A DNA stretch of 64,000 nt from the NCBI GenBank assembly GCA_023249475.1, contig JAHFCO010000001.1:122727-186726 (forward strand), written 5' to 3'. Source of the stretch: Bacillota bacterium. GTDB lineage: Bacteria; Bacillota_I; Bacilli_A; Erysipelotrichales; Erysipelotrichaceae. Below the pieces are notes generated by a model, which did not search any database, had not been told where the DNA came from, and worked only from the letters and a program-made list of their open reading frames with translations. The position numbers and the translations under genes were made by a program. Shown one piece after another: positions 6,570 to 31,683 of the stretch; the stretch's first letter is position 1, and the number at the start of each line of letters is the position of its first letter.

Positions 6570-6591
6570 AAAAGGAGCCGTGGCTCCTTTT
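6570..6591. terminator. Bidirectional intrinsic terminator
   Basis: AAAAGGAGCC / GGCTCCTTTT, a near-perfect palindrome between convergent genes, with A and T tracts usable in both directions. Confidence 0.8.
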
Positions 6592-7576
6592 ACTTGATTC
6601 TTCCTTTGAATTCTCCCTTAAGCTCGGCCCTGCGTCGACGGAAATTCAGGATCGGGGCATCGCCCGGGATCAGGTTTTCACCCATCGTCAGTTCGCTTTT
6701 GATCGGACGTTGCGTCACGACGACCGCACGGTCCTGATGCAGGACACGCCGGTTGGCAAGGTTGGCGAAGAATCCGACCAGATGGCGCATCCCCCAGACC
6801 GGCATGAAGGACTGATAGAAACGCAGATAGATCATCGTGTTCTCTTGGTCGATCGGGGCGAAGATCGCGACGATGCGGACTTGGTCGCTGATCCGGTTCT
6901 GCCAAAGGTTGGGCATCTGGAACTGCAGGCTGAAGTATTTCAGGTAATCCGGCATCTCGTCGGCCTTCATCGGTTTCGTTTCCCCGTCGTCGACCACGTT
7001 GTGGACATAGAAGGTCATGCGTTGTTCATCCCAGGTCACCACCGGTCCGTGGACCAAGGTGCGGTTCCCCCGCCCGATCGAATCGGCATGGACGAAGGGG
7101 AGATGGACGACGTCGAGTTGGTTTTCCACCGCACGGGTGTAATGCACCGGCCAGACTTCCTTGAACTGGCTATAGACGAACTTTTGCGTCAACTCCATGA
7201 AGAAGGGGATGTCGGGTTTCTCGGCCGCCGGATCGCCATACCACAACCAAATCACACCGTACTTCTCGACCACCGTAAATGATTTTACTTTATAACGGTC
7301 GCTGACCGGTGTGTTTTTTCCGTTGGCCGGAATCAATACGACTTTTCCCGATGCGTCATGGACGAACCCATGGAACGGGCAGGCGACCTTGTCTCCCTGC
7401 AATTCACCCTTACACAACGAGGCGCCGCGGTGGCAGCACTTGTCGGCGATGCATGCGATCGATCCATCCTTCTTACGCCACAACACCAGTTTCTCATCGC
7501 ATCGCGTCACGCCGGTCAACTTCCCGACCTTGACTTCATCGGCATCCAGGATGCCATACCATTGATTTTGAATCAT
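6590..7576 (-). CDS. Rieske non-heme iron oxygenase, alpha subunit
   Basis: 328 residues. The N-terminal Rieske [2Fe-2S] domain has Cys47-x-His49 and Cys66-x2-His69. The catalytic domain carries ENQLDVVHLPFVH with bridging Asp155 and iron ligands His158 and His163; a later HQD pair near residue 290 can supply the carboxylate ligand. This is the single-component class related to VanA-type demethylases. Such enzymes use O2 and electrons from a separate reductase, and none is adjacent. An intact O2-dependent enzyme beside the anaerobic ribonucleotide reductase genes suggests tolerance of or use of low oxygen. Substrate unknown. It is a single gene between terminators. Confidence 0.88.
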   Translation of the reverse strand: MIQNQWYGILDADEVKVGKLTGVTRCDEKLVLWRKKDGSIACIADKCCHRGASLCKGELQGDKVACPFHGFVHDASGKVVLIPANGKNTPVSDRYKVKSFTVVEKYGVIWLWYGDPAAEKPDIPFFMELTQKFVYSQFKEVWPVHYTRAVENQLDVVHLPFVHADSIGRGNRTLVHGPVVTWDEQRMTFYVHNVVDDGETKPMKADEMPDYLKYFSLQFQMPNLWQNRISDQVRIVAIFAPIDQENTMIYLRFYQSFMPVWGMRHLVGFFANLANRRVLHQDRAVVVTQRPIKSELTMGENLIPGDAPILNFRRRRAELKGEFKGRIK

Positions 7577-10343: not shown

Positions 10344-10436
10344 GTTTGCCCTTTCCTCAAAGAATCCTTACTGGAAGTGTGCATAATAAAAAGCAGTCGC
10401 TTATCCTTCGTAAGCTCCAAACGCATCTTTGAATAA

Positions 10437-10592
10437 GGCAGGTCTTCCGGCTCAAGGTCAACGTCTGGCTTCACCTTCCCATGCGGTGCACAGTGGTCTA
10501 CGAAGCAGACTCGCTTTTACGGCGGCGAGGACCGCGCGGGACTGACACCCGCTTCCCTGTTGGCGCATTGCTGCGACCTTATTCCTCTTTGA
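10437..10592 (-). ncRNA. Cobalamin (B12) riboswitch in the nrdDG leader
   Basis: Read on the minus strand, the leader contains the conserved adenosylcobalamin aptamer pieces in order: GGTCGCAG start, ACAGGGAAGC, GGTG...CAGTCCC, GACCACTG (B12-box type) and the 3' end GAGCCGGAAGACCTGCC. It begins at the predicted transcription start and ends about 95 bases before the nrdD start. Binding of cobalamin normally represses downstream genes. I saw no convincing terminator in the 90 bases after it, so control could be at termination or ribosome access. Confidence 0.93.
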
Positions 10593-10599
10593 TAGGTTG

Positions 10600-20915: not shown

Positions 20916-20972
20916 AGGAAAAACCTCATCTCGATGCCGGCTTCGGGGGGGCATCGAACACAGGAGACCCTC

Positions 20973-22511
20973 ATGATCCAAAAATTCCTTCGGATAATGC
21001 AGACCGGTAGCCATAAAAATCTGACCGGTTCCCAACAACGCGCGATTTTCATGACCAACATCTCGGCTACCGGCGCCATCGCCAGTTATGCGGGATTCGC
21101 CCTTCTTTATTTCCTCTTGGATCAAGAAACCTTGTTTCCGGTCATTCTCGTGAACATCGTCGCGATTTTCTTCCTTTTCCCGGTGCTCTATTTCAATTCG
21201 AAACGTCTTTATTCCTTGGCCACCGTTTGGATGATCCTCTGGGTTTCCCTCCCTGTCTTCACCAATCTGCGGCTCTATCTGGGATACCGCGGGGGTTCGC
21301 ATATTTTCTTCATCCTTTTCTCCCTTCTCCCCATCCTTACGATCCAGGAATACCGTAAACGCCTGACAAGCCTGCTTTCGGGGATGAACCTGTTGTTTTT
21401 CTTCCTCACGTATCGCTACCAACCCACCCCTGAATTACTCTCCGTATTCTCCCCCTGGATGATCCGCTCGATCGAACTCTTCACGATGGGGTTCGTGTTG
21501 GTCACCATCGTGTTGGTTTTCTTCATCAACCAACGCATCATCGACCGATATGAGACCGAACTGACCGAGAAAAGAATGAGTCTGGAGTCCGCCTTGGTCG
21601 AGGTCAAGAATTTCGCGACCCTCGACGCTTTGACCGGAATCCTCAACCGGGGTCATATGGAAAAAAGAATCCGAGAAGAACTGGCGCGCGGGAATCGCTA
21701 TGGATTCCCGATCTCGCTGATCCTCTTCGACATCGACCACTTCAAGCAAATCAACGACGTATTCGGACATGACATCGGAGATGTCGTCCTTAAGAAGATG
21801 GTCGATACCGTAGCCGGACGGATTCGCGAGACGGATGCCTTGGGCCGGTGGGGCGGGGAAGAATTCATGTTGCTTATGCCGTATACCGACGCGAAGAACG
21901 CGGATCTCGTGGCCCAGAAACTATGCCGTTCCTTGGGATGGGTCGACCATGGGGAATACGGGAAAATCACCGCGAGTTTCGGTGTCGCCCAATGGATCAA
22001 CAACGAATCCTTCGCCGAACTCTACAAACGTTTGGATAACGCGTTGTACGCCGCGAAAAGCGCAGGTCGCAACCGGGTCGTAACGGATAATTTAAAACCC
22101 TCCACCAAGCATATCCTGACTCGCCAACCATGGCGGGAAGAATGGAATTCGGGGCATGATGAAATCGATCGTCAACACCGCAACCTCATCAACTTGGTCG
22201 GTTCTCGATTGGATGATGAAGATCCGCTTCCGCAAGCGGAATGGCAGGTGTTTCTTGATCAACTCATGCACGACCTCGTCAGCCACTTCCGATACGAAGA
22301 GAGACTGCTGATGGAATACGGATTCGCCGACATCCGCTCCCACCATCTCGCCCATGAGAAACTGATCGGTTGGATGGCGAACTTGACGAACCAGTTCTTG
22401 AACGAACCGACCGAAAACAAGCCGCGTTTCCTTTATATTTTGGAAGAAGCCGTACTCAACCATATGTTGGAAGAAGATGTCAAATATTTCCCGCTGGTAC
22501 GACAGGAGTGA
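20973..22511 (+). CDS. Membrane diguanylate cyclase with C-terminal hemerythrin domain
   Basis: 512 residues in three parts: about six transmembrane helices (about 27-190); a GGDEF domain (about 205-370) with intact GGEEF active loop and DIDHFKQIND, so cyclic-di-GMP synthesis is expected; and a bacteriohemerythrin domain (about 385-512) with HDEID, HRNL, HFRYEE, HHLAHE and HMLEED giving the His/Glu/Asp ligands of a di-iron site. Known hemerythrin-GGDEF fusions respond to oxygen or redox state. The start at 20973 follows ACAGGAG. The stop is 4 bases before the photolyase start, so the two are co-transcribed. Confidence 0.93.
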   Translation: MIQKFLRIMQTGSHKNLTGSQQRAIFMTNISATGAIASYAGFALLYFLLDQETLFPVILVNIVAIFFLFPVLYFNSKRLYSLATVWMILWVSLPVFTNLRLYLGYRGGSHIFFILFSLLPILTIQEYRKRLTSLLSGMNLLFFFLTYRYQPTPELLSVFSPWMIRSIELFTMGFVLVTIVLVFFINQRIIDRYETELTEKRMSLESALVEVKNFATLDALTGILNRGHMEKRIREELARGNRYGFPISLILFDIDHFKQINDVFGHDIGDVVLKKMVDTVAGRIRETDALGRWGGEEFMLLMPYTDAKNADLVAQKLCRSLGWVDHGEYGKITASFGVAQWINNESFAELYKRLDNALYAAKSAGRNRVVTDNLKPSTKHILTRQPWREEWNSGHDEIDRQHRNLINLVGSRLDDEDPLPQAEWQVFLDQLMHDLVSHFRYEERLLMEYGFADIRSHHLAHEKLIGWMANLTNQFLNEPTENKPRFLYILEEAVLNHMLEEDVKYFPLVRQE

Positions 22512-22515
22512 ACCT

Positions 22516-23817
22516 ATGTCAGAAAAAACCGTCGTCTATTGGGTGAGCCGTGCATTGCGTACGGTTGAAAACCCGGCTCTGATCCATTCCCAACAACTTG
22601 CCCTTGAACACGGTCATCGCTTGATCGTGGTTTTCAACTTGTATCCGGATTTCCCGTATGCGAACCTGAGAAACATGGATTTTCTACTTCAGGGCTTGGT
22701 CGAGATGTCACGGAAGTTGAAGAATTCAAACATCCCTTTACTCGTGATGGAGGGGGATGCGGAGAAGAACTTCCAGGAATTGATGGCGACGCGTGAAATC
22801 CATACGATCGTCACCGAACATCAGGTTCTCAAACCGGTGTTGAACGCGCAAGACCGGGTTCGTGCACGATGCGCCGAAAACGGGGTTTCATTCCGCACGA
22901 TCAACACGGCGTGCGTCGTTCCGGTCGAGATCGCAAGCCCGAAACTGGAGTATGCGGCGAAGACCTTCCGACCGAAAATCATGGGGATGTATCGTGATTA
23001 CTTGCAGCCGATTCCAGCACTGATGCCCCACCCTCAAGAAATCAAGGAAGAAGTGTTTAGCGAAACGCACTATCGATCCTTACTGACGAAATACCCGCAT
23101 TGGCATACGATCACGAGAAGCGCGATGATCCCGGGGGAAGACGCGGCCTTACGTCGACTGGACACGTTCATCCGCGAGTCGCTGGCGAATTTCGACCGTC
23201 GCAACGAGGTCGACGCCAACGGTCAGTCGAAACTCTCCGCCTACCTTCATTTCGGAATGATCTCGCCCGTGAAGATGATCCGGGACGTCGAAGCCAGCGG
23301 TCATCCCAACGCCGAACTCTTCGTGGAAGAAGCGATGGTTCGCCGCGAGTTGGCGGAAAACTATTGCCACTACTGCAAGGACTACGATTCGTTGGATGGC
23401 GCCTGGGGATGGGCGAAAGCCACCCTTCAGCAACACCAAAACGATCCCCGGGATTACTTCTACACTTTCGAGGAATTCAGGGATGCGAAGACCCATGACA
23501 TACTCTGGAATTATTGCCAGAAACAGGTGGTCGAAACCGGATATCTCCATTCCTATCTCCGGATGTATTGGGCGAAGATGGTCTTATTGTGGAGTAAGGA
23601 TGCGCGTCAAGCCGTCGATACCCTGATCCGATTCAACGACACCTATTTCCTGGATGGACGCGACCCCAACGGCTATACCGGGATCCTGTGGAGCGTCGCC
23701 GCCGTACATGACCGCCCTTGGTTCGATAAACCCGTCCATGGCTTGATCCGGGCCATGGGGAGTGAAGGGACGCTGAGGAAAACGAAGCTCAAACTCGAAG
23801 AAGAGAAGATCGGTTGA
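22516..23817 (+). CDS. phr: Class II CPD photolyase
   Basis: 433 residues. The N-terminal antenna/Rossmann part (VVYWVSRALRTVENPALIHSQQLA) and the C-terminal FAD domain (LSAYLHFGMISP, VRRELAENYCHYCKDY, LHSYLRMYWAKMVLLW, DGRDPNGYTGILWSV) are hallmarks of class II photolyases, which repair cyclobutane pyrimidine dimers using blue/near-UV light. The enzyme appears complete. It is the second gene of an operon with the hemerythrin diguanylate cyclase, and the start follows ACAGGAGTG. Presence of a photolyase implies exposure to sunlight. Confidence 0.95.
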   Translation: MSEKTVVYWVSRALRTVENPALIHSQQLALEHGHRLIVVFNLYPDFPYANLRNMDFLLQGLVEMSRKLKNSNIPLLVMEGDAEKNFQELMATREIHTIVTEHQVLKPVLNAQDRVRARCAENGVSFRTINTACVVPVEIASPKLEYAAKTFRPKIMGMYRDYLQPIPALMPHPQEIKEEVFSETHYRSLLTKYPHWHTITRSAMIPGEDAALRRLDTFIRESLANFDRRNEVDANGQSKLSAYLHFGMISPVKMIRDVEASGHPNAELFVEEAMVRRELAENYCHYCKDYDSLDGAWGWAKATLQQHQNDPRDYFYTFEEFRDAKTHDILWNYCQKQVVETGYLHSYLRMYWAKMVLLWSKDARQAVDTLIRFNDTYFLDGRDPNGYTGILWSVAAVHDRPWFDKPVHGLIRAMGSEGTLRKTKLKLEEEKIG

Positions 23818-23869: not shown

Positions 23870-23893
23870 CAAAGGGTATTGGCGGAGGTTCCC

Positions 23894-26122
23894 ATGATCG
23901 ATCAATCAGCACTCCTATCAACGACCATCCTTGAGTACGCTCGTAACCTGAGTGTTTTCGCCTTGGATCGTGATCTTCGATACATCGCGTTCACGCAACG
24001 CCATGCGGATTTCGTTCAGGAAGTCTTTCACCGAGCCCTCGCCGTTGGGATGGGGTTCATGGAAGTCTTCGGTACTTCAAGCGAAAGCGAACGGTTCGCC
24101 GCCTACTTTAGCGAGGCATGGTCCGGGAAGACGACCGATTTGACCATGGAACACGGAATCAACCCCCTTATGAACGATACGTTGAACTGCCACATTTCCC
24201 CCGTTGTCCACGAGGGCGAGACGATCGCCGTCACTTGTGTCATGAAGAACATCACGGATGAGATACTTTCCGAGACGAAGCGGCTCCGCAAGGAAGAAGA
24301 ACTGGATCTCTTTTTCGAACATTCGATCAACGGCTTCTTGTTTATGATGTTGGATGAGCCGGTCGAATGGAACGATACGGTCGATAAGGAAAAAGTGTTG
24401 GATTATGTCTTCGACCATCAACGATTGACGAAGGTCAACCAAGCCTATCTCGACCAATACGGATACACCTTGGACGAGGTGATCGGGGAGACGCCGGCGC
24501 AGAGTTTTGCGCATGACCTGGCCCAAGGACGCGAGACGTGGCGAAGGATGTTCGACCATGGCCAACTTCAGGCCATGACACAGGAACTCAAGAAAGACGG
24601 AAGCCCGATGTGGGTGAAAGGCAACTATGTCTGTCTCTATGACGAGCAAGGACGGATCATCGGGCACTTCGGGACGCAGAACGATGTCACCATCGAACAG
24701 AACGCGCAATACCTTTTAAAAAGCAACGAAGAACTCTTCCGCGCCATCTTCGAACAAGCCGAGATCGGGATCAGTTACGGACCGATCGATGAAAGATATG
24801 GCCGGATGAATCGGAAATACAGCGAAATCGTCGGATATACGCCCGATGAACTGAACCACTTGACCTTTGCGCAGATCACCCATCCGGAGGATCTGCCGTT
24901 GGACTATGTAAACATGCGTAGAATGTTGGCGAAGGAAATCGATTCCTATTCCATCGACAAGCGTTTCATACGGAAAGACGGAAGCATCGTCTGGACCCAT
25001 CTGACCGCCTCGATGATCTACCACGAGTTGGAGAAGAAATCGTTCATCCTCGCGATCCTGCAGGACATTTCCGGAAAGAAACGGGCGGAAGAAGAGATGC
25101 TTTACCTCAACTTCCACGATCATTTGACCGGCCTCTACAATCGGCGGTTCTATGAAGAAGAACTCCGACGTCTGGATATCCAGCGCAACCTCCCCATCAC
25201 CTTGGTCATGATCGATGCGAACGGACTGAAACTGATGAACGACGCGTTCGGGCACGAGGTCGGCGACCAGAGTCTGAAGAAGATCGCGGAAGCCTTGAGG
25301 CGTGTCTGCCGTCAGGACGAGATCATCGCCCGGATCGGCGGCGACGAGTTCGTCATCCTATTACCCAAAACAAAGAAACATGATGCGGACGAAATCGTTC
25401 GCCGCATCCATCTCTCCGTCGCCATGGAGAAAGTCGAAAACATTCTCTTGTCCGTGTCGATCGGATCCGCGACGAAGTCCAACCAAGAGACGACGATGCG
25501 CGATGTCTTCAAGATGGCCGAAGACGCGATGTACCGTCAGAAACTGACGGATAGTTCGAGCATCCTCAGCAAGACCATCGACATCATCATGAATTCGCTC
25601 TATGAGAAAAACAATCGCGAGATGGATCATTCCCGACGCGTCAGCGAGATGTGCGAAGCCATCGCGACGAAACTGCATTTCGACCGCAGCGAAATCCATA
25701 AAATCAAGGTCGCGGGCTTGATGCACGACATCGGGAAGATCGGCATCCCCGATTCGATTTTGAATAAAGTCGGGGCGCTGACACGGGAAGAATGGCACGA
25801 AATCCGCCAGCACAGCGAAGTCGGGTATCGGATCCTCAGTTCGGCCAACGAATTCTCCGAACTTTCCGAGTTCGTTTTAGCCCATCACGAGCGTTGGGAC
25901 GGGAAAGGCTATCCCAAAGGATTGAAGGGGAACGAAATCCCCGTCCAATCCAGGATCATCGCGATCGCGGACGCTTTCGATGCGATGACCAGCGACCGCA
26001 CCTACCGTAAAGGGCTCAGTTATCCCGAAGCCAAGGAAGAAATCCTCCGTAATGTCGGAAAACAGTTCGACCCGGAAATCGCCTTGCTGTTCCTCGACCA
26101 CGTTTTTCCCGAACTCAAGTAA
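23894..26122 (+). CDS. PAS-GGDEF-HD-GYP cyclic-di-GMP turnover protein
   Basis: 742 residues, cytosolic. Three PAS-type sensor regions (about 10-130, 145-270, 280-400, the last two with clear PAS signatures DEVIGETP and GYTPDELNH) precede a GGDEF domain (about 410-560) with intact GGDEF loop, and an HD-GYP domain (about 565-742) with HDIGKIGIPD and HHERWDGKGYP. Both catalytic motifs are intact, so it may make and degrade c-di-GMP, with PAS inputs setting the balance. ATG at 23894 is used because GGAGG precedes it. No c-di-GMP receptor gene was seen in the window. Confidence 0.93.
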   Translation: MIDQSALLSTTILEYARNLSVFALDRDLRYIAFTQRHADFVQEVFHRALAVGMGFMEVFGTSSESERFAAYFSEAWSGKTTDLTMEHGINPLMNDTLNCHISPVVHEGETIAVTCVMKNITDEILSETKRLRKEEELDLFFEHSINGFLFMMLDEPVEWNDTVDKEKVLDYVFDHQRLTKVNQAYLDQYGYTLDEVIGETPAQSFAHDLAQGRETWRRMFDHGQLQAMTQELKKDGSPMWVKGNYVCLYDEQGRIIGHFGTQNDVTIEQNAQYLLKSNEELFRAIFEQAEIGISYGPIDERYGRMNRKYSEIVGYTPDELNHLTFAQITHPEDLPLDYVNMRRMLAKEIDSYSIDKRFIRKDGSIVWTHLTASMIYHELEKKSFILAILQDISGKKRAEEEMLYLNFHDHLTGLYNRRFYEEELRRLDIQRNLPITLVMIDANGLKLMNDAFGHEVGDQSLKKIAEALRRVCRQDEIIARIGGDEFVILLPKTKKHDADEIVRRIHLSVAMEKVENILLSVSIGSATKSNQETTMRDVFKMAEDAMYRQKLTDSSSILSKTIDIIMNSLYEKNNREMDHSRRVSEMCEAIATKLHFDRSEIHKIKVAGLMHDIGKIGIPDSILNKVGALTREEWHEIRQHSEVGYRILSSANEFSELSEFVLAHHERWDGKGYPKGLKGNEIPVQSRIIAIADAFDAMTSDRTYRKGLSYPEAKEEILRNVGKQFDPEIALLFLDHVFPELK

Positions 26123-26123
26123 A

Positions 26124-26149
26124 AAAACGAATCCGCTCGGATTCGTTTT
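26124..26149. terminator. Bidirectional intrinsic terminator
   Basis: AAAACGAATCCG / CGGATTCGTTTT between convergent genes, with A and T tracts on both sides. Confidence 0.85.
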
Positions 26150-27914
26150 ACTTTAGAAGGTAGCCGACGGCGAAGGCGCCTTTCCCGGCGTTCAAGCCGA
26201 CGATGGGTGAAATCGACTCGATGTATTCAGGTTCTTTCCCCAGTATGGCAAGGCATTGTTTCTTCAATTCTTTCAAATCTTCCGGATCATCCGAGTAGAC
26301 CAAGGCATACTTGTCGATGCCTTGTTTCTTCAGGTCGTTCTTGATCGCTTTCAAGATCGACTTCAACGCGCTCTTCTGGGTCAGGGATTTCGCGAAGATT
26401 TCCCCCTTCCCTTCAGGATCGATCGAGATGACGGGTTGGAGTTTGAGTTTGGAGAGAATGAATCCGGTCGTCTTTGAAACCCTTCCCCCTTTCAGCATGT
26501 ATTTCAAATCCTTCACGATGACATAGATCCTGGCTTTTTCGACCTTCTCTTGGATCGTCTTCACGATCTCAACGAAGGGGACGCCTTGGTCCTTCAAGAT
26601 CGCGGCTTCATGCACCAACAAGCCTTCCGCGATCGAATTCGCCTTCGAGTCCAGGATTTCGATCTGTTTTCCTTCGGTCCGCATCGGCTCGATGATCCGA
26701 AGAAGATTGGCATAGGTCCCGCTCATCTTCGAGGAGACGAAAATCCCCAGGATGTGGTCGTAGTGTTGAAGCAACTGTCTGAAGGTCCGTTCGATGGTGG
26801 TTTGCGTCGCCATGGAAGAGGTCGGATTCAAGGTATAGTCATCCATGTGTTCATAGAAGTCGCTCTGTTTCATCGTCACCTTGTCCATATAGACGACCGA
26901 ATCGATGATGATGTTCATCGGGATCACCACGATCTGGTGGCGATCCACGAATTCCTGGGGCAAGTCGGCGATGGAATCGGTGACGATCGCCATTTTGGCG
27001 ACGGGTTCATGGATCAAACGCGCCTGCATGTACATGTCGTCGACCTTGTGGGAAGTGACCGGTCCTTCGTTGAGAAGCAGTTTCATCACTTCATGGGGGG
27101 CGTTGGTGTGCAGATGGACGTTCAGATGATCGTCGGTGCTTCCGATGACCAATGAGTCGCCATGGTTTCCAAGCTTTTCACGCAACGCATCCGGGCTGTT
27201 TCTGGTTTGCACCAGGTATTGGGTACAATAACGATAGTCCCCGACATCACTCGAGGCATAGATTTCCGCCACTTCTTCCAAGACGGCCGCGGTGTATTCC
27301 TGATTTTCCAACGTCCGGGTTTTGAGGAACTTTGCGATCCCTTCCACGAAATAATAGAACGCCATGGCCCCCGCATCGACGACGTTGTGGTCGCGTAGGA
27401 CTTTGAGCTGGTCCTTGGTGTGTTGGACCGCGCCTTTCAGTGCGCTCAGGGAATGTTCGACCAAGGGGGCGAAGTCGTCTTCGATGTGCGACTCCAAATG
27501 GGTCGCCCACTCGCGCATGACGGTCAGGATGGTGCCTTCTTTCGGGTTGGCGACCGACTTGAACGCATACTGCGCGCTGGTCTTGAGGGATTCGACGAAT
27601 TCTTGCGAAGTGAGGTTCTCGCGTTGTCCGACCGATTGGGACAGGCCGTGGAGATACTGGGCGAAGATGACGCCGGAGTTGCCATAGGCATGGTCGACCG
27701 CCACGTCGGCGATGGATTTCATCGTCACGGAGGCTTGCGGACGACATTGCGCCTGCGACAAAATCGAGTTCATCGTCAGACTCAGGTTGGTTCCCGTATC
27801 CCCATCCGGCACGGGGAACACGTTGATACGGTTCAAATTGGTCTCGTTGACGATGACATTCTTCGCCCCGGAGACGATGTAGGAGTAGATTTCATTCCCG
27901 TCGATGATCACCAT
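26148..27914 (-). CDS. FakA-FakB fusion: DAK2-type fatty acid kinase joined to a DegV domain
   Basis: 588 residues. Residues 1-195 form the DhaL/DAK2-type kinase domain with the Mg-ATP loop VPDGDTGTN (Asp37, Asp39); about 200-300 match the FakA middle domain (YCTQYLV..., HLNVHLHTNAP); about 308-588 form a complete DegV/FakB lipid-binding domain (MAIVTDSIADLP, LKGGRVSK). FakA phosphorylates a fatty acid held by FakB, so this fusion carries kinase and carrier in one chain. It ends a six-gene operon behind an ABC transporter and the light/B12-associated genes. Two separate FakB-like genes lie at 15594 and 16542. Confidence 0.9.
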   Translation of the reverse strand: MVIIDGNEIYSYIVSGAKNVIVNETNLNRINVFPVPDGDTGTNLSLTMNSILSQAQCRPQASVTMKSIADVAVDHAYGNSGVIFAQYLHGLSQSVGQRENLTSQEFVESLKTSAQYAFKSVANPKEGTILTVMREWATHLESHIEDDFAPLVEHSLSALKGAVQHTKDQLKVLRDHNVVDAGAMAFYYFVEGIAKFLKTRTLENQEYTAAVLEEVAEIYASSDVGDYRYCTQYLVQTRNSPDALREKLGNHGDSLVIGSTDDHLNVHLHTNAPHEVMKLLLNEGPVTSHKVDDMYMQARLIHEPVAKMAIVTDSIADLPQEFVDRHQIVVIPMNIIIDSVVYMDKVTMKQSDFYEHMDDYTLNPTSSMATQTTIERTFRQLLQHYDHILGIFVSSKMSGTYANLLRIIEPMRTEGKQIEILDSKANSIAEGLLVHEAAILKDQGVPFVEIVKTIQEKVEKARIYVIVKDLKYMLKGGRVSKTTGFILSKLKLQPVISIDPEGKGEIFAKSLTQKSALKSILKAIKNDLKKQGIDKYALVYSDDPEDLKELKKQCLAILGKEPEYIESISPIVGLNAGKGAFAVGYLLK

Positions 27915-27922
27915 GGGTTGCC

Positions 27923-28609
27923 TCACTTTCGAAGGTCAAGAAGGATCTTGCCATCTTTGATTTCAACGATCCGATCCGTCTTCTGAGCGATCTGTTGGTC
28001 ATGGGTGATGATGATGAAGGTCGTGTTGTATTTCTTGTTGATGTCGCGCATCAGCTTGTAGATTTGTTCGGCGGTATCCGAATCCAGGTTCCCCGTCGGT
28101 TCGTCCGCCAGGATGATGCGGGGATTGTTGATGAGGGCACGCGCGATCGCCGTGCGTTGTTGCTGTCCGCCCGACATCTTGTTGGCGGGATTGTCCTTGA
28201 CGGCGCTGAGACCGACGAAGTCGATCAATTCCAGGGCGCGATCCATCGTTTCCTTGGATACCTTCGCATTCTTGATGCGGTTGGGAAGCAGGATGTTCTG
28301 GATGGCGGTGAATTCGGGGAGGAGATAGTGGAACTGGAAGATGAATCCGATGGTTTCGTTGCGCAACGACGCCAATTCCTTGCTTTTCAAGGTGGAGACG
28401 TCTTTCCCGTTGAGAACGACTTTCCCGTTGGTCGGTTTATCCAAGGTCCCCAGGATGTTCAACAACGTGCTCTTCCCGCTCCCCGATTGTCCGATGATGC
28501 TGTTGAAACTGCCTTCTTCGAAGCTAAGGTTGACATCGTGCAGGACGTGCGTCTTGATGCTTGTGCCATAGATTTTATCGATGTGTTGGAGTTCTAGAAT
28601 GTTAGCCAT
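27923..28609 (-). CDS. ABC transporter ATP-binding protein (LolD/MacB type)
   Basis: 228 residues: Walker [10 protein letters not shown] (about 39-47), Q-loop [10 protein letters not shown], signature [15 protein letters not shown], Walker [12 protein letters not shown], and H-loop ITHD. It belongs to the LolD/FtsE/MacB group that powers lipoprotein, lipid or peptide movement across the membrane interface. It overlaps its permease gene by 8 bp and is followed 8 bp later by the FakA-FakB fusion, which hints at a lipidic substrate, though this is inference. Confidence 0.93.
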
Positions 28610-29753
28610 TGCGGATTACCTCGATCGGACTGAGTTTTTTGGATTTACGTGCCGGGATGACGGAAGCCAACAAGGCGGAAATCACCGCGACGCTTCCGGA
28701 AAACGCGATGAACGTCGCGTCATAGGTGATGGGGATCAAGGCGGTGCCGTCCGGGTTTTTCGCGAACGTCGTAAACATCGCCAACAAACCGACGCCTAGA
28801 CCGACCCCCAGGATACCACCCAGGATCCCTAGGATCAACCCTTGGAAGATGAAGATCAAGCTGGCTTGGGAATCGTTGATCCCCATCGCCTTCAGGATGC
28901 CGATCTGCCGCGACTTCTGCAGGACGGTGATCGCCAGGACGCTGGATATGCCGAGGATGACCGAAATCAAAACGAAAAGCTGGATCATGTAGGTGGAGAT
29001 GCTTTGTCCGTTGAGTCCGCTCAACAAGGATTCGTTCTGCGCTTTCCAGTTGACGACCTTCAGATCGGAATCAACCGAAGGTTCAAGCGACGCGGCGATC
29101 GTGTCGGCGGCGAAGACATCCTTCACCTGCATTTCGATCCCGGTGAAGGCATCGCCGAGATTGAATAGTTCCTGTGTCAGTTCCGATTGCGAAACGATCC
29201 AGGAATCATTGACGGCCGAAACGCCGAGGTCGAAGATCCCGACCACCTTCACATCGACGGTGTCGCCCAAGATCGTTTGTAGCGTAATGGTTTCGTTGAG
29301 GTCGACGTTCAGGTTCGTCGCCAACCCTTTCCCCAGGATGACTTCATTTGCGGTGTCGGCCATTCTACCATCCAACAGACTATTCTCAAGGTCGTAGATG
29401 GTCGCGGTCTCGTCGCTGAACCCACGCAACAGGGCGGATTCATCTTCATTGGCGGTGAGCGCGAATACCGCGCCATCCGCCGTCTTCCCCACATGGATCA
29501 AACGATCGTCCTTTGTGAGTGAAGTGAACAGGGCGTCTTCGATCTGAAACGACGCGCCCTTGCTTTCGCTGACGATCGTGATGTGCGGGCTTTGTCCGAT
29601 GGTCCGTTGGATCAAACTGTCCTGCAAACCCTGGATCAACAAGCCGATGAAGATCTGGACGGAAATCCCGATCGCGATCCCCAACATGATCAGAATCGTC
29701 TGACCTTTACTGTACGTTAAAAACCGCTTGGCGATGGAAAAGGATAACTTCAT
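28602..29753 (-). CDS. ABC transporter permease (MacB/LolE-type FtsX domain)
   Basis: 383 residues: a basic N-terminus and one transmembrane helix (about 19-42), a large extracytoplasmic MacB-type periplasmic-core-like domain (about 43-255), and three C-terminal helices (about 262-288, 305-345, 352-378) forming an FtsX domain. Such mechanotransmission permeases pull lipids or lipoproteins out of the membrane outer face. The start at 29753 overlaps the stop of the cobalamin-binding gene (ATGA). Substrate unknown. Confidence 0.9.
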   Translation of the reverse strand: MKLSFSIAKRFLTYSKGQTILIMLGIAIGISVQIFIGLLIQGLQDSLIQRTIGQSPHITIVSESKGASFQIEDALFTSLTKDDRLIHVGKTADGAVFALTANEDESALLRGFSDETATIYDLENSLLDGRMADTANEVILGKGLATNLNVDLNETITLQTILGDTVDVKVVGIFDLGVSAVNDSWIVSQSELTQELFNLGDAFTGIEMQVKDVFAADTIAASLEPSVDSDLKVVNWKAQNESLLSGLNGQSISTYMIQLFVLISVILGISSVLAITVLQKSRQIGILKAMGINDSQASLIFIFQGLILGILGGILGVGLGVGLLAMFTTFAKNPDGTALIPITYDATFIAFSGSVAVISALLASVIPARKSKKLSPIEVIRNG

Positions 29754-30385
29754 TTGACATCCCCCTTGACCACGGCCTGCAGCTCTTTGAAATTCTGGCA
29801 AACGAACACCTTGTTTCCATGGATCGCATCCGGGTTGTTCACCAAGGCTTGTCCACCCAAAATGATTTTCTGTTCGGGATGGTCGCGGTTGATGATGCCG
29901 ATGGTCGCATTCAAGGCGGAAAGGTTGTAGAAATTGTTGGTGCTTAGCACGACATAGTCGAAATCGAAGGATCGGATGAGATCCGAGATTTCTTCTTTCG
30001 GTAGACTATTCCCGAAGAAATGGGCGTTATATCCCAAGATGCGGAAATAGTCCGCCACGACGCGCGGTCCCAATTCGTGGTATTCCCCTTCCGGGCAAAC
30101 GATCGCGACGTGTTTCTCGCTGACTTGAAACGACTTCTTCAATACGATCGGATAAAGGCTTTCCAACACGGTACGCAGGATCTGCGTCTTCATATGTTCA
30201 TCCCAGATTTTATGCTTGGGATTCATTTCCTTCGAGGTCACACCCGTCATCGCTTTGGCCAGAATGGTTTCATAGAACTCGATCAGTCCCAATTGACCCG
30301 AACTCACCCACTGGTGCGCCAATTCGACGCAGGCGTCTTTATCATATTCATTCAATTTTTCTTGAAACTGGGTTAAATAAGGCAT
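29750..30385 (-). CDS. Free-standing cobalamin-binding protein (CarH/LitR sensor-like, no DNA-binding domain)
   Basis: 211 residues. A helical B12-binding cap (about 5-85, with Glu63-His64 after Trp61) and a Rossmann B12-binding domain (about 90-205) with GEYHELG, where His103 in the ExHxxG motif would be the lower cobalt ligand; VVLSTNNF and ILGGQAL follow. This is the sensor half of CarH/LitR photoreceptors, which bind adenosylcobalamin and change state in light, but the N-terminal MerR-type domain is absent. It sits between DUF2177 and an ABC permease in one operon. It could signal to a partner protein instead of DNA. Corrinoid methyltransferase helper proteins are an alternative, but no methyltransferase is near. 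Confidence 0.82.
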   Translation of the reverse strand: MPYLTQFQEKLNEYDKDACVELAHQWVSSGQLGLIEFYETILAKAMTGVTSKEMNPKHKIWDEHMKTQILRTVLESLYPIVLKKSFQVSEKHVAIVCPEGEYHELGPRVVADYFRILGYNAHFFGNSLPKEEISDLIRSFDFDYVVLSTNNFYNLSALNATIGIINRDHPEQKIILGGQALVNNPDAIHGNKVFVCQNFKELQAVVKGDVK

Positions 30386-30397
30386 CTCTTTACTCCT

Positions 30398-30793
30398 CTA
30401 GAGCTTTCCGATGATGAAAACGCTAATGACGCTGACCAAGGTGGACAAGGTCGTCCCCCAGATCAAGTCGATGATGGTGATTTGGATCGGCCAATCCTTG
30501 AGCGTCGCAAGATTGGTCAAATCATAGGTCGCATAGGTCACCAACCCGAAGAGGGCGGCACGCAGGACAAGTTGAGTGAAATTCTGATCTTGCAAGGCGG
30601 GTTCGATGACGAAGACAAGCAAGCCGACGATAAACAAGGCATAGAAGATCAGGGCGGCGATCCAGTTGACCTTGTCGCTCATGATGAAGCCGAGGTACTT
30701 ACTGTAAAGGTTCTTGGCGATCAAGCCCAGCCAGACCAGATCGATGGCGAAGAACACGACCAAGGCGATGACGAAGTGAAGTAGAAATTTCAT
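30398..30793 (-). CDS. DUF2177 family membrane protein
   Basis: 131 residues with four transmembrane helices; the N-terminal AIDLVWLGLIAKNLYSKYLG and AALFGLVTYATYDLTNLATL with WPIQITIIDLIWG are the family hallmarks. Function is not established. From general knowledge, DUF2177 genes recur beside DUF1295, photolyase and LitR/CarH regulators in light-induced clusters. The start at 30793 (AAGGGGGA before it) comes one base after the DUF1295 stop, so the two are tightly coupled. Confidence 0.9.
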   Translation of the reverse strand: MKFLLHFVIALVVFFAIDLVWLGLIAKNLYSKYLGFIMSDKVNWIAALIFYALFIVGLLVFVIEPALQDQNFTQLVLRAALFGLVTYATYDLTNLATLKDWPIQITIIDLIWGTTLSTLVSVISVFIIGKL

Positions 30794-30794
30794 A

Positions 30795-31559
30795 TTATCC
30801 CCCTTTCCGAGGCAACCTCGGGATAAAGATACTGGTGTTTTTGACATACTCTTCATAGCCGGCATATTTCTTAAGGCGCGCTTCAAGCATCGGAACCCCG
30901 GAAACATAGCGGATGATCAAGGTGATCGTGATCGGACTGAGAATCGCCCAGATCGGAGCGCCGAGTCCAAGGGCGACGAAGTACACCCCGAACCACAACA
31001 CCGACTCCCCGAAGTAGTTCGGATGACGGGTGTATTTCCAAAGCCCCGTTTGGATCAACTTCCCTTTATTCGCTGGGTTCTGCGTATGCGCCTTCAGTTG
31101 GGCGTCGCCGATGCTTTCAAACAACATCCCGACCGTGTAGACAAGGATCCCGAAGACCACAAGCGGAAGCGACGTCAAGGTCGCCGAGCTTTGGCCCAGG
31201 ATGTTCGCAACGGAAATGATGTACATCAAGAGCCCTTGAAACAGGAAGAGTTGGAAGTAAGCCCGGACGAAATACGTCTTGCCCCATTGTTTACGGAAGT
31301 TCGCATAGCGGAAGTCTTCCGGTTTCTTATAATTACGTTTGAAGATGTGCAGACTTAAGCGCGCACCCCACAGGAAGGTCATGAGAAACAAGAGCCATCC
31401 CAACGGCCTGTTGATGTTGATCTGGACGAAGAGCGAGAGAAGGAAGAAGCCCATGCCCCAGCCGACATCGATGTATCCGGCGTTCTTAAGATAGGTGGTC
31501 AGCGCATACCATGCGCTGAAGTAGACAAGTAAAAAGGCGATGATGTGGATGTGGTTCAT
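30795..31559 (-). CDS. DUF1295 family membrane protein (steroid 5-alpha-reductase-like)
   Basis: 254 residues with six to seven membrane helices. The C-terminal half carries the family pattern GLWKYTRHPNYFGE (about 180-193) and the end YEEYVKNTSIFIPRLP, as in the steroid 5-alpha-reductase/ICMT superfamily, which reduces or modifies lipid-like substrates with NADPH. The real substrate is unknown; a membrane lipid or fatty-acyl substrate would fit the fatty acid kinase in the same operon. First gene of the operon; GAGGAG precedes the ATG. Confidence 0.9.
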   Translation of the reverse strand: MNHIHIIAFLLVYFSAWYALTTYLKNAGYIDVGWGMGFFLLSLFVQININRPLGWLLFLMTFLWGARLSLHIFKRNYKKPEDFRYANFRKQWGKTYFVRAYFQLFLFQGLLMYIISVANILGQSSATLTSLPLVVFGILVYTVGMLFESIGDAQLKAHTQNPANKGKLIQTGLWKYTRHPNYFGESVLWFGVYFVALGLGAPIWAILSPITITLIIRYVSGVPMLEARLKKYAGYEEYVKNTSIFIPRLPRKGG

Positions 31560-31655
31560 GGTTATTCTCCTCTGACATGAAAAGAATCACGGGTTGATTC
31601 TCTTGGTCGATCTCGACGAATTGTTTCTATTCCCCCAAGTAAGCCCTGTACCTTT

Positions 31656-31683
31656 ATTATAGTAACTTAACTAAATATTTCAA
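31656..31683 (-). promoter_or_regulatory. Strong sigma-A promoter of the six-gene light/B12/lipid operon
   Basis: TTGAAA (31678-31683), 16-bp spacer, consensus TATAAT (31656-31661) on the minus strand, with a leader of about 90 bases. The spacer region holds the near-repeat TTAGTTAAGTTA, a possible operator. I see no other promoter inside the operon. Confidence 0.75.

Follow-up and report, generated by a model that had tools for sequence, protein, structure and literature searches.

A CarH-type cobalamin-binding protein encoded with a LolF/LolD-type ABC transporter: a possible cobalamin-sensing transporter subunit

Background

What does a B12-binding domain of the CarH type act on when it carries no DNA-binding domain and its gene lies among genes for membrane proteins, an ABC transporter and a fatty-acid kinase? 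This question is raised by a six-gene cluster in the window, a 64,000-nucleotide stretch of an Erysipelotrichaceae genome. In the literature, CarH-type B12 domains are described as acting through DNA binding, diguanylate cyclases or protein partners such as CrtJ. The reading favoured here, to which sequence comparison and structure models lend roughly an even chance, is that the B12 protein, the first gene of a conserved unit, senses cobalamin as a cytoplasmic subunit of a LolF/LolD-type ABC transporter and likely switches it.

Layout of the six-gene cluster

All six open reading frames described in the first-pass annotation were found on the minus strand, head to tail and at the positions claimed, and their domain names agreed with the Pfam and NCBIfam matches. 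The features are as follows, in the direction of transcription.

31656..31683, minus strand: promoter-like TTGAAA-16-TATAAT, sigma-70-like, upstream of DUF1295 (11/12 matches)
30795..31559, minus strand: DUF1295 membrane protein, steroid-reductase-like (PF06966, PF02544); lineage-specific addition
30398..30793, minus strand: DUF2177 membrane protein (PF09945); lineage-specific addition
29750..30385, minus strand: B12-binding protein, 211 aa (PF02310); opens the conserved three-gene core
30194..30234, minus strand: codons of residues 51-64, covering the loop and the beginning of the helix at the CarH GxxW...EH site (from a 45-row alignment and 11 longer relatives)
28602..29753, minus strand: LolF/FtsX-type ABC permease, 383 aa (PF02687 and PF12704); its start codon (ATG) lies in a 4 nt overlap with the end of the B12 gene
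27923..28609, minus strand: LolD-type ABC ATPase, 228 aa (PF00005); third gene of the conserved core
26148..27926, minus strand: DAK2 - FakA-middle - DegV fusion, FakA-FakB-like, of the fatty-acid kinase type (PF02734, PF21645, PF02645); lineage-level addition
26124..26149, minus strand: terminator-like stem-loop after the Fak gene (11-pair stem, T-rich tail)

The tight packing was confirmed, with junctions from DUF1295 through to the ATPase of gap 1, gap 12, overlap 4 and overlap 8 nt. The ATPase/Fak junction is an overlap of 4 nt if the Fak gene starts at GTG 27926 and a gap of 8 nt if it starts at ATG 27914. The proposed promoter corresponds to one sigma-70-like candidate at 31683-31656, ahead of DUF1295, and both of its hexamers are identical in a genus mate (L016); the scan of the region returned six promoter-like sites where 4.4 were expected by chance. 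The statement that the operon holds no internal terminator needs amending, as three weak minus-strand stems of 5-6 pairs start within it at 31459, 31408 and 29984, from a scan that gave 14 terminator-like sites against 7.8 expected.

A conserved three-gene core

The six genes are not kept together across genomes, an outcome that the first-pass annotation had itself named as telling against its reading; only a core of three recurs, namely the B12 protein, the LolF/FtsX-type permease and the LolD-type ATPase, in that order. Before counting, L017 and L018 were dropped as duplicates of L055 and L016, respectively, and L067 (G043) was excluded as a non-member, its 213 aa protein being corrinoid-shuttle-like (36 bits). 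L023 lay outside the analysis, and the standalone-size fragments G612:C212 and a 131 aa frame in G427 were likewise left out.

In 48 of 50 loci, the permease gene comes immediately 3' of the standalone B12 gene; of the two exceptions, one is a decayed remnant and one is cut off by the end of a contig. The two genes overlap in 47 of the 48, and the 47 scored pairs comprised overlaps of 4 nt (30), 1 nt (12) and 17-19 nt (4) and a gap of 2 nt (1). The ATPase gene follows next in 42 of 47 loci; four of the remainder are at a contig edge and one is L108, where the permease frame is split ahead of the ATPase. The outer neighbours of the unit differ between loci.

In the reverse direction, the permease was detected (E<=1e-50) in 38 of 395 genomes of the class, and the B12 protein was present in 37 of these 38. 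In G368 the permease stands without a B12 gene and the ATPase is truncated; the unit genes were lost together in L066; and in L095 and L123 a stop interrupts the B12 gene while the permease frame stays open. An adenosyltransferase was found in 36/38 permease genomes compared to 60/357 others. The three proteins co-diverged (r 0.78, 0.69 and 0.72), each value being reached by 0/2000 permutations in a 38-row distance test; because all the genomes share ancestry, these permutation figures and the Fisher figures overstate independence. The test was run without L095, L123, L111, L101, L108, L056, L098, L113, L120 and L059, the last for want of an ATPase.

In a phylum sample, 18 of 392 genomes matched at E<=1e-25, all of them from the window's own class. 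A scan of named genomes yielded two loci, both in Erysipelotrichaceae bacterium, and plasmid records gave 12 weak matches of 20-31% identity.

Fold and predicted cobalt site of the B12 protein

The description of the B12 protein as free of a DNA-binding domain was borne out: for its 211 aa, neither Pfam nor NCBIfam reported an HTH domain. The MerR domain is absent and a CarH-type two-domain fold is predicted, a four-helix bundle followed by a Rossmann domain (AlphaFold single-chain model, pLDDT 87.4; mean pLDDT 59 in the loop 51-60). The best 50 Foldseek rows were CarH/LitR, CtMerR and photocobilins, and the top PDB profile matches were CtMerR and photocobilins. NCBIfam scores for CarH (38.0 bits) and pyl_corrinoid (20.4 bits) were both far below cut-off.

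The alignment of 45 members, made without L095, L111 and L123 (interrupted or partial), showed E63, H64, E101, H103, G125 and P129 in all 45, corresponding to the EH pair, the ExH lower ligand and the GxxxP element; the glycine of GxxH occurred in just 10. In B12 photoreceptors, the tryptophan of the GxxW motif packs on the adenosyl group. No tryptophan occupied that column in any of the 45 aligned members, and a W-x9-11-EH motif was found in 0/50 frames, some of them fragments; the motif counts exclude the G554 locus (L129). In its place, a cysteine pair (C51, C59) was present in 34 of the 45 members and a histidine in the window's lineage, the window protein reading S51, H58, K59, W61, E63 and H64 at this site. 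The longer-type relatives, of which 11 out of 29 matches were examined, kept the GxxW tryptophan in 11/11 and lie mostly beside GGDEF genes.

Some bacteria carry both forms, the tryptophan-bearing one mostly by GGDEF genes and the tryptophan-less one by the transporter. This offers a natural comparison for the role of the tryptophan.

These residues bear on what the protein may sense. It could be a true adenosylcobalamin photoreceptor, with green light switching the transporter via adenosyl photolysis as in CarH and with W61 or H58 replacing W131/H132. The photoreceptor fold and the EH, ExH and GxxxP elements are kept, an adenosyltransferase is nearly always present in permease genomes, and a class II-type photolyase gene lies nearby in the window, L016, L055 and L066. 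However, the other mapped loci have no photolyase match nearby, and the tryptophan lost from every aligned member is retained in every longer relative examined. The earlier claim for light is weakened because the adenosyl-packing tryptophan is missing throughout the family; light as the signal is possible, with no support from the sequence, and we regard photoreceptor control of the transporter as unlikely.

The B12 protein might otherwise be no sensor, serving as a methyl or corrinoid carrier or passing corrinoid to the transporter as cargo. The fold was tried as a means of telling a sensor from a methyl carrier and rejected: VIA-align placed methionine synthase and a methylamine corrinoid protein within the first ten, nearly as close as the photoreceptors, and thus the fold alone is not decisive. 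In sequence, B12 photoreceptors were closer to the protein than corrinoid shuttle proteins were; a best match to the latter would have told against the first-pass annotation. The invariant EH pair argues against a carrier, as does the score of 20.4 bits for the corrinoid-protein model TIGR02370 (cut-off 215.3). No methyltransferase was recognized beside the unit in the locus maps, read by eye and with nine profiles, none of them for methyltransferases, and the genome has a separate MtaC-like protein. A carrier role is accordingly given a low probability, below that of light.

Additions in the window's lineage

Only in the window and in L016 were the DUF1295 and DUF2177 genes seen next to the B12 gene, and at loci beyond the window's lineage none of the three extra genes belongs to the unit. 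DegV-like genes were seen within a few kb only at L100, L121 and L122 among the other loci. The FakA-FakB fusion was rejected as a special feature because nearly all of the 120 listed homologues (of 6593 scored) have both DAK2 and DegV. A literature search gave no support for the recurrence of DUF1295 and DUF2177 near LitR/CarH genes.

The cluster had been interpreted as a single device that responds to light or B12 status by adjusting the transporter, a membrane reductase and the phosphorylation of fatty acids. Its six genes do share one likely transcript in two genomes, and two more near relatives probably retain the Fak gene next to the unit; yet the three extra genes are not part of the unit elsewhere, which leaves this interpretation with a slim chance. 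In the window's lineage, genes for the fatty-acid kinase and two membrane proteins were added to the likely transcript of the B12/ABC unit, which would bring lipid enzymes under the same expression control.

The permease and ATPase

The best PDB sequence match of the permease was LolF (E 4.1e-18) and its best fold match was LolCDE (9xro_E, TMq 0.88, compared to about 0.5 for HrtBA), from a middling single-chain model (pLDDT 76.2, pTM 0.52). Both proteins fell below the NCBIfam cut-offs, the permease with 134.2 of 362.45 bits for lolCE and the ATPase with 263.3 bits against 307.75 for LolD (TIGR02211). A search of the genome itself (96% complete) for the LolA chaperone (PF03548, E<=0.01) found none. 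Because of the resemblance to LolF and MacB, the substrate is likeliest a lipid-anchored or hydrophobic molecule, as judged from sequence and model.

It is very improbable that the fold of the B12 protein binds heme instead of cobalamin, as AppA's SCHIC domain does, and controls an HrtBA-type tetrapyrrole exporter, given that in 45/45 members H103 keeps the usual cobalamin register (E-x-H-E/D) whereas the SCHIC ligand histidine is shifted by two, that the permease is far closer to LolCDE than to HrtBA by the TMq values above, and that the adenosyltransferase association is strong.

A putative cobalamin-sensing transporter subunit

Since nearly every neighbourhood (48/50) has the permease gene immediately after the B12 gene, the B12 protein likely controls the transporter, although the linkage and gene overlap could reflect co-expression only. 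The earlier interpretation survives in part: the partner of the B12 module is probably a protein, the ABC transporter encoded adjacent, while the six-gene lipid device is not conserved.

For the cobalamin-sensing subunit favoured here, the signal likely read is the cobalt-ligand or redox state. Cobalamin would be held between the helix bundle and the Rossmann domain, the cobalt having H103 beneath it, and its upper face would be read by the loop before E63-H64, mostly through the cysteine pair and through H58 in the window's lineage. When the upper ligand changes, through loss of the adenosyl group, ligation by a thiol or histidine, or the redox state of the cobalt, the helix bundle may shift as in CarH, and the shift would alter docking on the permease or the ATPase and hence transport.

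If true, transporter control would be a new job for B12 sensors, adding transport to their known outputs, and non-light sensing by CarH-type B12 chemistry becomes a directly testable question. We tentatively suggest, at somewhat less than an even chance, that this is the first cobalamin-gated transporter: a CarH-type domain without DNA binding or the tryptophan, with a cysteine pair or histidine above the cobalt, serving a Lol-type ABC transporter as its cytoplasmic subunit for sensing redox state or ligand in several families of one class. Searches of the open-access literature for work joining CarH or B12-binding with an ABC transporter, permease, LolD, FtsX or LolCDE returned nothing beyond two reviews, which is weak evidence of absence.

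Comparison with known systems

MacB and HrtBA share the broad permease fold of the unit's permease but gave weaker matches, and we know of no B12 partner described for either. LolCDE and LolDF are closer, the permease being nearest LolF by sequence and LolCDE by fold; the unit differs in its sub-cut-off permease and ATPase scores, in the lack of a LolA match in its own genome and in the attached B12 gene. AerR/PpaA has a cap tryptophan and an N-terminal histidine as upper ligand, whereas the B12 protein has no cap tryptophan and a short N-terminus; AerR/PpaA acts through the transcription factor CrtJ/PpsR, and the likely partner here is a transporter. Compared to the photocobilins (SasPcob, AbDPcob), the B12 protein has neither the C-terminal globin/biliverdin domain, its 211 aa being filled by the B12 fold, nor W-x10-EH. 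CarH/class I LitR and CtMerR resemble it in the helix bundle and Rossmann domain, the EH pair, ExH and GxxxP, but the B12 protein is without their MerR domain and GxxW tryptophan and is linked to an ABC transporter.

A recurring three-gene unit

In the window, the gene for a CarH-like B12 protein is followed on the same strand by those for a permease and an ATPase:
29750-30385, minus strand, B12 protein (211 aa)
28602-29753, minus strand, LolF/FtsX-type permease
27923-28609, minus strand, LolD-type ATPase

The B12 protein or alignments of it served as queries against the genomes of 97 relatives and against 272 genomes of the family, 395 of the class and 392 of the phylum; the neighbourhoods were then read. 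The CarH-like proteins in these genomes were of two kinds, standalone (about 205-250 aa where complete) and longer. Fifty standalone loci were examined (the window, its genus mate L016, and neighbourhoods L019, L055-L063, L066, L087-L116, L118-L123 and L129 from related genomes), and in 48 of them a LolF/FtsX-type permease gene lay directly 3' of the B12 gene on the same strand. At one exception, L129 (genome G554), the contig stops there; the other, L066 3204-3458, is a natural remnant comprising the first part of the B12 gene, which has lost both permease and ATPase and keeps the outer neighbours of L055, namely a photolyase and, by eye, a gene resembling lysyl-tRNA synthetase. The ATPase gene came next after the permease in 42 of the 47 loci scored by script; four of the other five reach a contig edge, and in the fifth, L108, the permease frame is split ahead of the ATPase. 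The B12 and permease genes overlapped by 4 nt in 30 of the 47 scored pairs, 1 nt in 12 and 17-19 nt in four, with a 2 nt gap in one; the window adds a further 4 nt overlap. At L095 1649-2329 and L123 4767-5443 a stop interrupts the B12 gene with the permease frame open, reflecting decay or sequence error, and the pieces were kept apart. Outer neighbours varied between loci (asparaginyl-tRNA synthetase-like, RecA-like and XTP-pyrophosphatase-like genes, by eye).

A reverse test that started from the permease (E<=1e-50) gave matches in 38 of the 395 class genomes, and 37 of these also held the B12 protein. The exception, G368 (L128 6865-8903), has a permease without an upstream B12 gene and a short, truncated ATPase, after which a frame resembling a transposase (by eye) lies at the contig end. 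Of the 47 genomes in which the B12 protein matched, ten had no permease match: eight carry the longer type only, and in G554 and G596 the permease is cut by the contig. Pairwise distances among B12 protein, permease and ATPase were correlated (r 0.78, 0.69 and 0.72; 38 rows), with 0 of 2000 permutations reaching the observed value for each protein pair. Because the genomes share ancestry, this correlation shows that the three were inherited jointly and does not amount to many independent events.

The operon in the window

The first-pass annotation described a six-gene operon at 26148-31683. Six tightly packed minus-strand genes were confirmed from ORF positions and junctions, and Pfam and NCBIfam upheld the domain names: DUF1295, DUF2177, B12-binding, FtsX/MacB_PCD permease, ABC ATPase and a Dak2/FakA-middle/DegV fusion. 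A good promoter-like site lies at 31683-31656, its hexamers identical in L016, and a terminator-like stem is present 3' of the last gene. Conservation of all six genes together was not borne out, the recurring unit being the smaller one of three genes. Among the neighbourhoods examined, DUF1295 and DUF2177 adjoin this unit only in the window and L016; the Fak fusion is probably also retained beside it in two further close relatives, judging by equal-sized contigs (12120 and 4672). Given the linkage, the reverse test, the varied outer neighbours and the correlated distances, DUF1295, DUF2177 and the Fak fusion are local additions of the window, and the three-gene core stays together amid changing surroundings.

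Downstream of the operon, on the opposite strand, a photolyase gene is flanked by two GGDEF proteins; the unit also has a photolyase gene nearby in L016, in L055 and at the decayed L066 locus.
20934-22511, plus strand, GGDEF protein with a hemerythrin-like C-terminus (by eye)
22477-23817, plus strand, class II-type photolyase
23879-26122, plus strand, PAS-GGDEF-HD protein

Residues at the predicted upper face

The W-x9-11-EH motif was present in all 11 longer relatives examined (336-386 aa; out of 29 such hits) and absent from the transporter-linked family (0 of 50 frames from 48 loci, some of them fragments). At the place of the lost tryptophan, directly ahead of I/V-W/F/Y-x-E-H, 34 of 45 transporter-linked sequences carry C51 and C59 (window numbering), the two cysteines occupying the identical 34 rows (by eye). 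Both cysteines are missing from the remaining 11 rows, which make up the window's lineage within its family and all have H58; the split between cysteine pair and H58 is probably one evolutionary switch. W61, R71, E75, N151 and Y153 are fixed or nearly so in the transporter-linked family, not in the longer relatives.

A GGDEF gene adjoins nine of the 11 longer relatives (L020, L021, L022, L064, L065, L103, L117, L124 and L125), and a permease none of them. Their N-terminal part of about 130-150 aa gave no Pfam hit in six scanned. The longer W-x9-11-EH proteins and adjoining GGDEF genes are likely to be cyclic-di-GMP photosensor pairs. Both types co-occur in some genomes, ~3 kb apart in L103.

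Since the tryptophan is lost and Cys-Cys or His stands at the predicted upper face, the transporter-linked protein is more likely a ligand- or redox-state sensor than a green-light sensor.

Cobalamin supply

Of the 38 class genomes with the permease, 36 had a PduO-type adenosyltransferase, versus 60 of the 357 others; the two that lacked it were G550 (86% complete) and G584 (82% complete). The genome holding the window encodes an adenosyltransferase and three further B12-binding-domain proteins, and the window itself carries a cobalamin riboswitch:
10420-10596, minus strand, cobalamin riboswitch (RF00174, 101.2 bits), upstream of the next gene
10343-8103, anaerobic ribonucleotide reductase-like gene, with an activase-like gene (both named by eye)

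The adenosyltransferase association, together with these B12 genes and the riboswitch, favours cobalamin over heme as the ligand. A Rieske-type iron-sulfur protein (by eye; 6590-7576, minus strand) is encoded near the ribonucleotide reductase genes. At L055 1473-5852 (G294) the unit has B12 genes close by, which Pfam identified as cobalamin adenosyltransferase and the large chain of a ribonucleotide reductase.

Comparison with known systems

The evidence for the unit consists of linkage, gene overlap, predicted fold class and motifs. In the proposed mechanism, the B12 protein would bind cobalamin, dock onto the transporter and gate it in response to a putative stimulus. Searches of open-access papers returned no account in which a domain of the CarH type is tied to an ABC transporter. 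Taken singly, the sensor domain and the transporter are of known kinds; that the two are coupled is so far a prediction from sequence.

By sequence, the permease was closest to LolF (E 4.1e-18). By fold it was closest to LolCDE (9xro_E, TMq 0.88), then to MacB and, more weakly, to HrtBA, in a comparison resting on a middling model (pLDDT 76.2, pTM 0.52). The transporter scored under the NCBIfam cut-offs for the lolCE and LolD families, and a profile search found no LolA in its own genome. By resemblance, it is expected to act like a Lol/MacB-type extruder, but to class it as a Lol system would not be justified. For a B12 protein without a MerR domain that acts on a partner, the precedent is AerR, which is described as working through a protein partner, with a histidine from elsewhere as upper ligand (PMC9144470).
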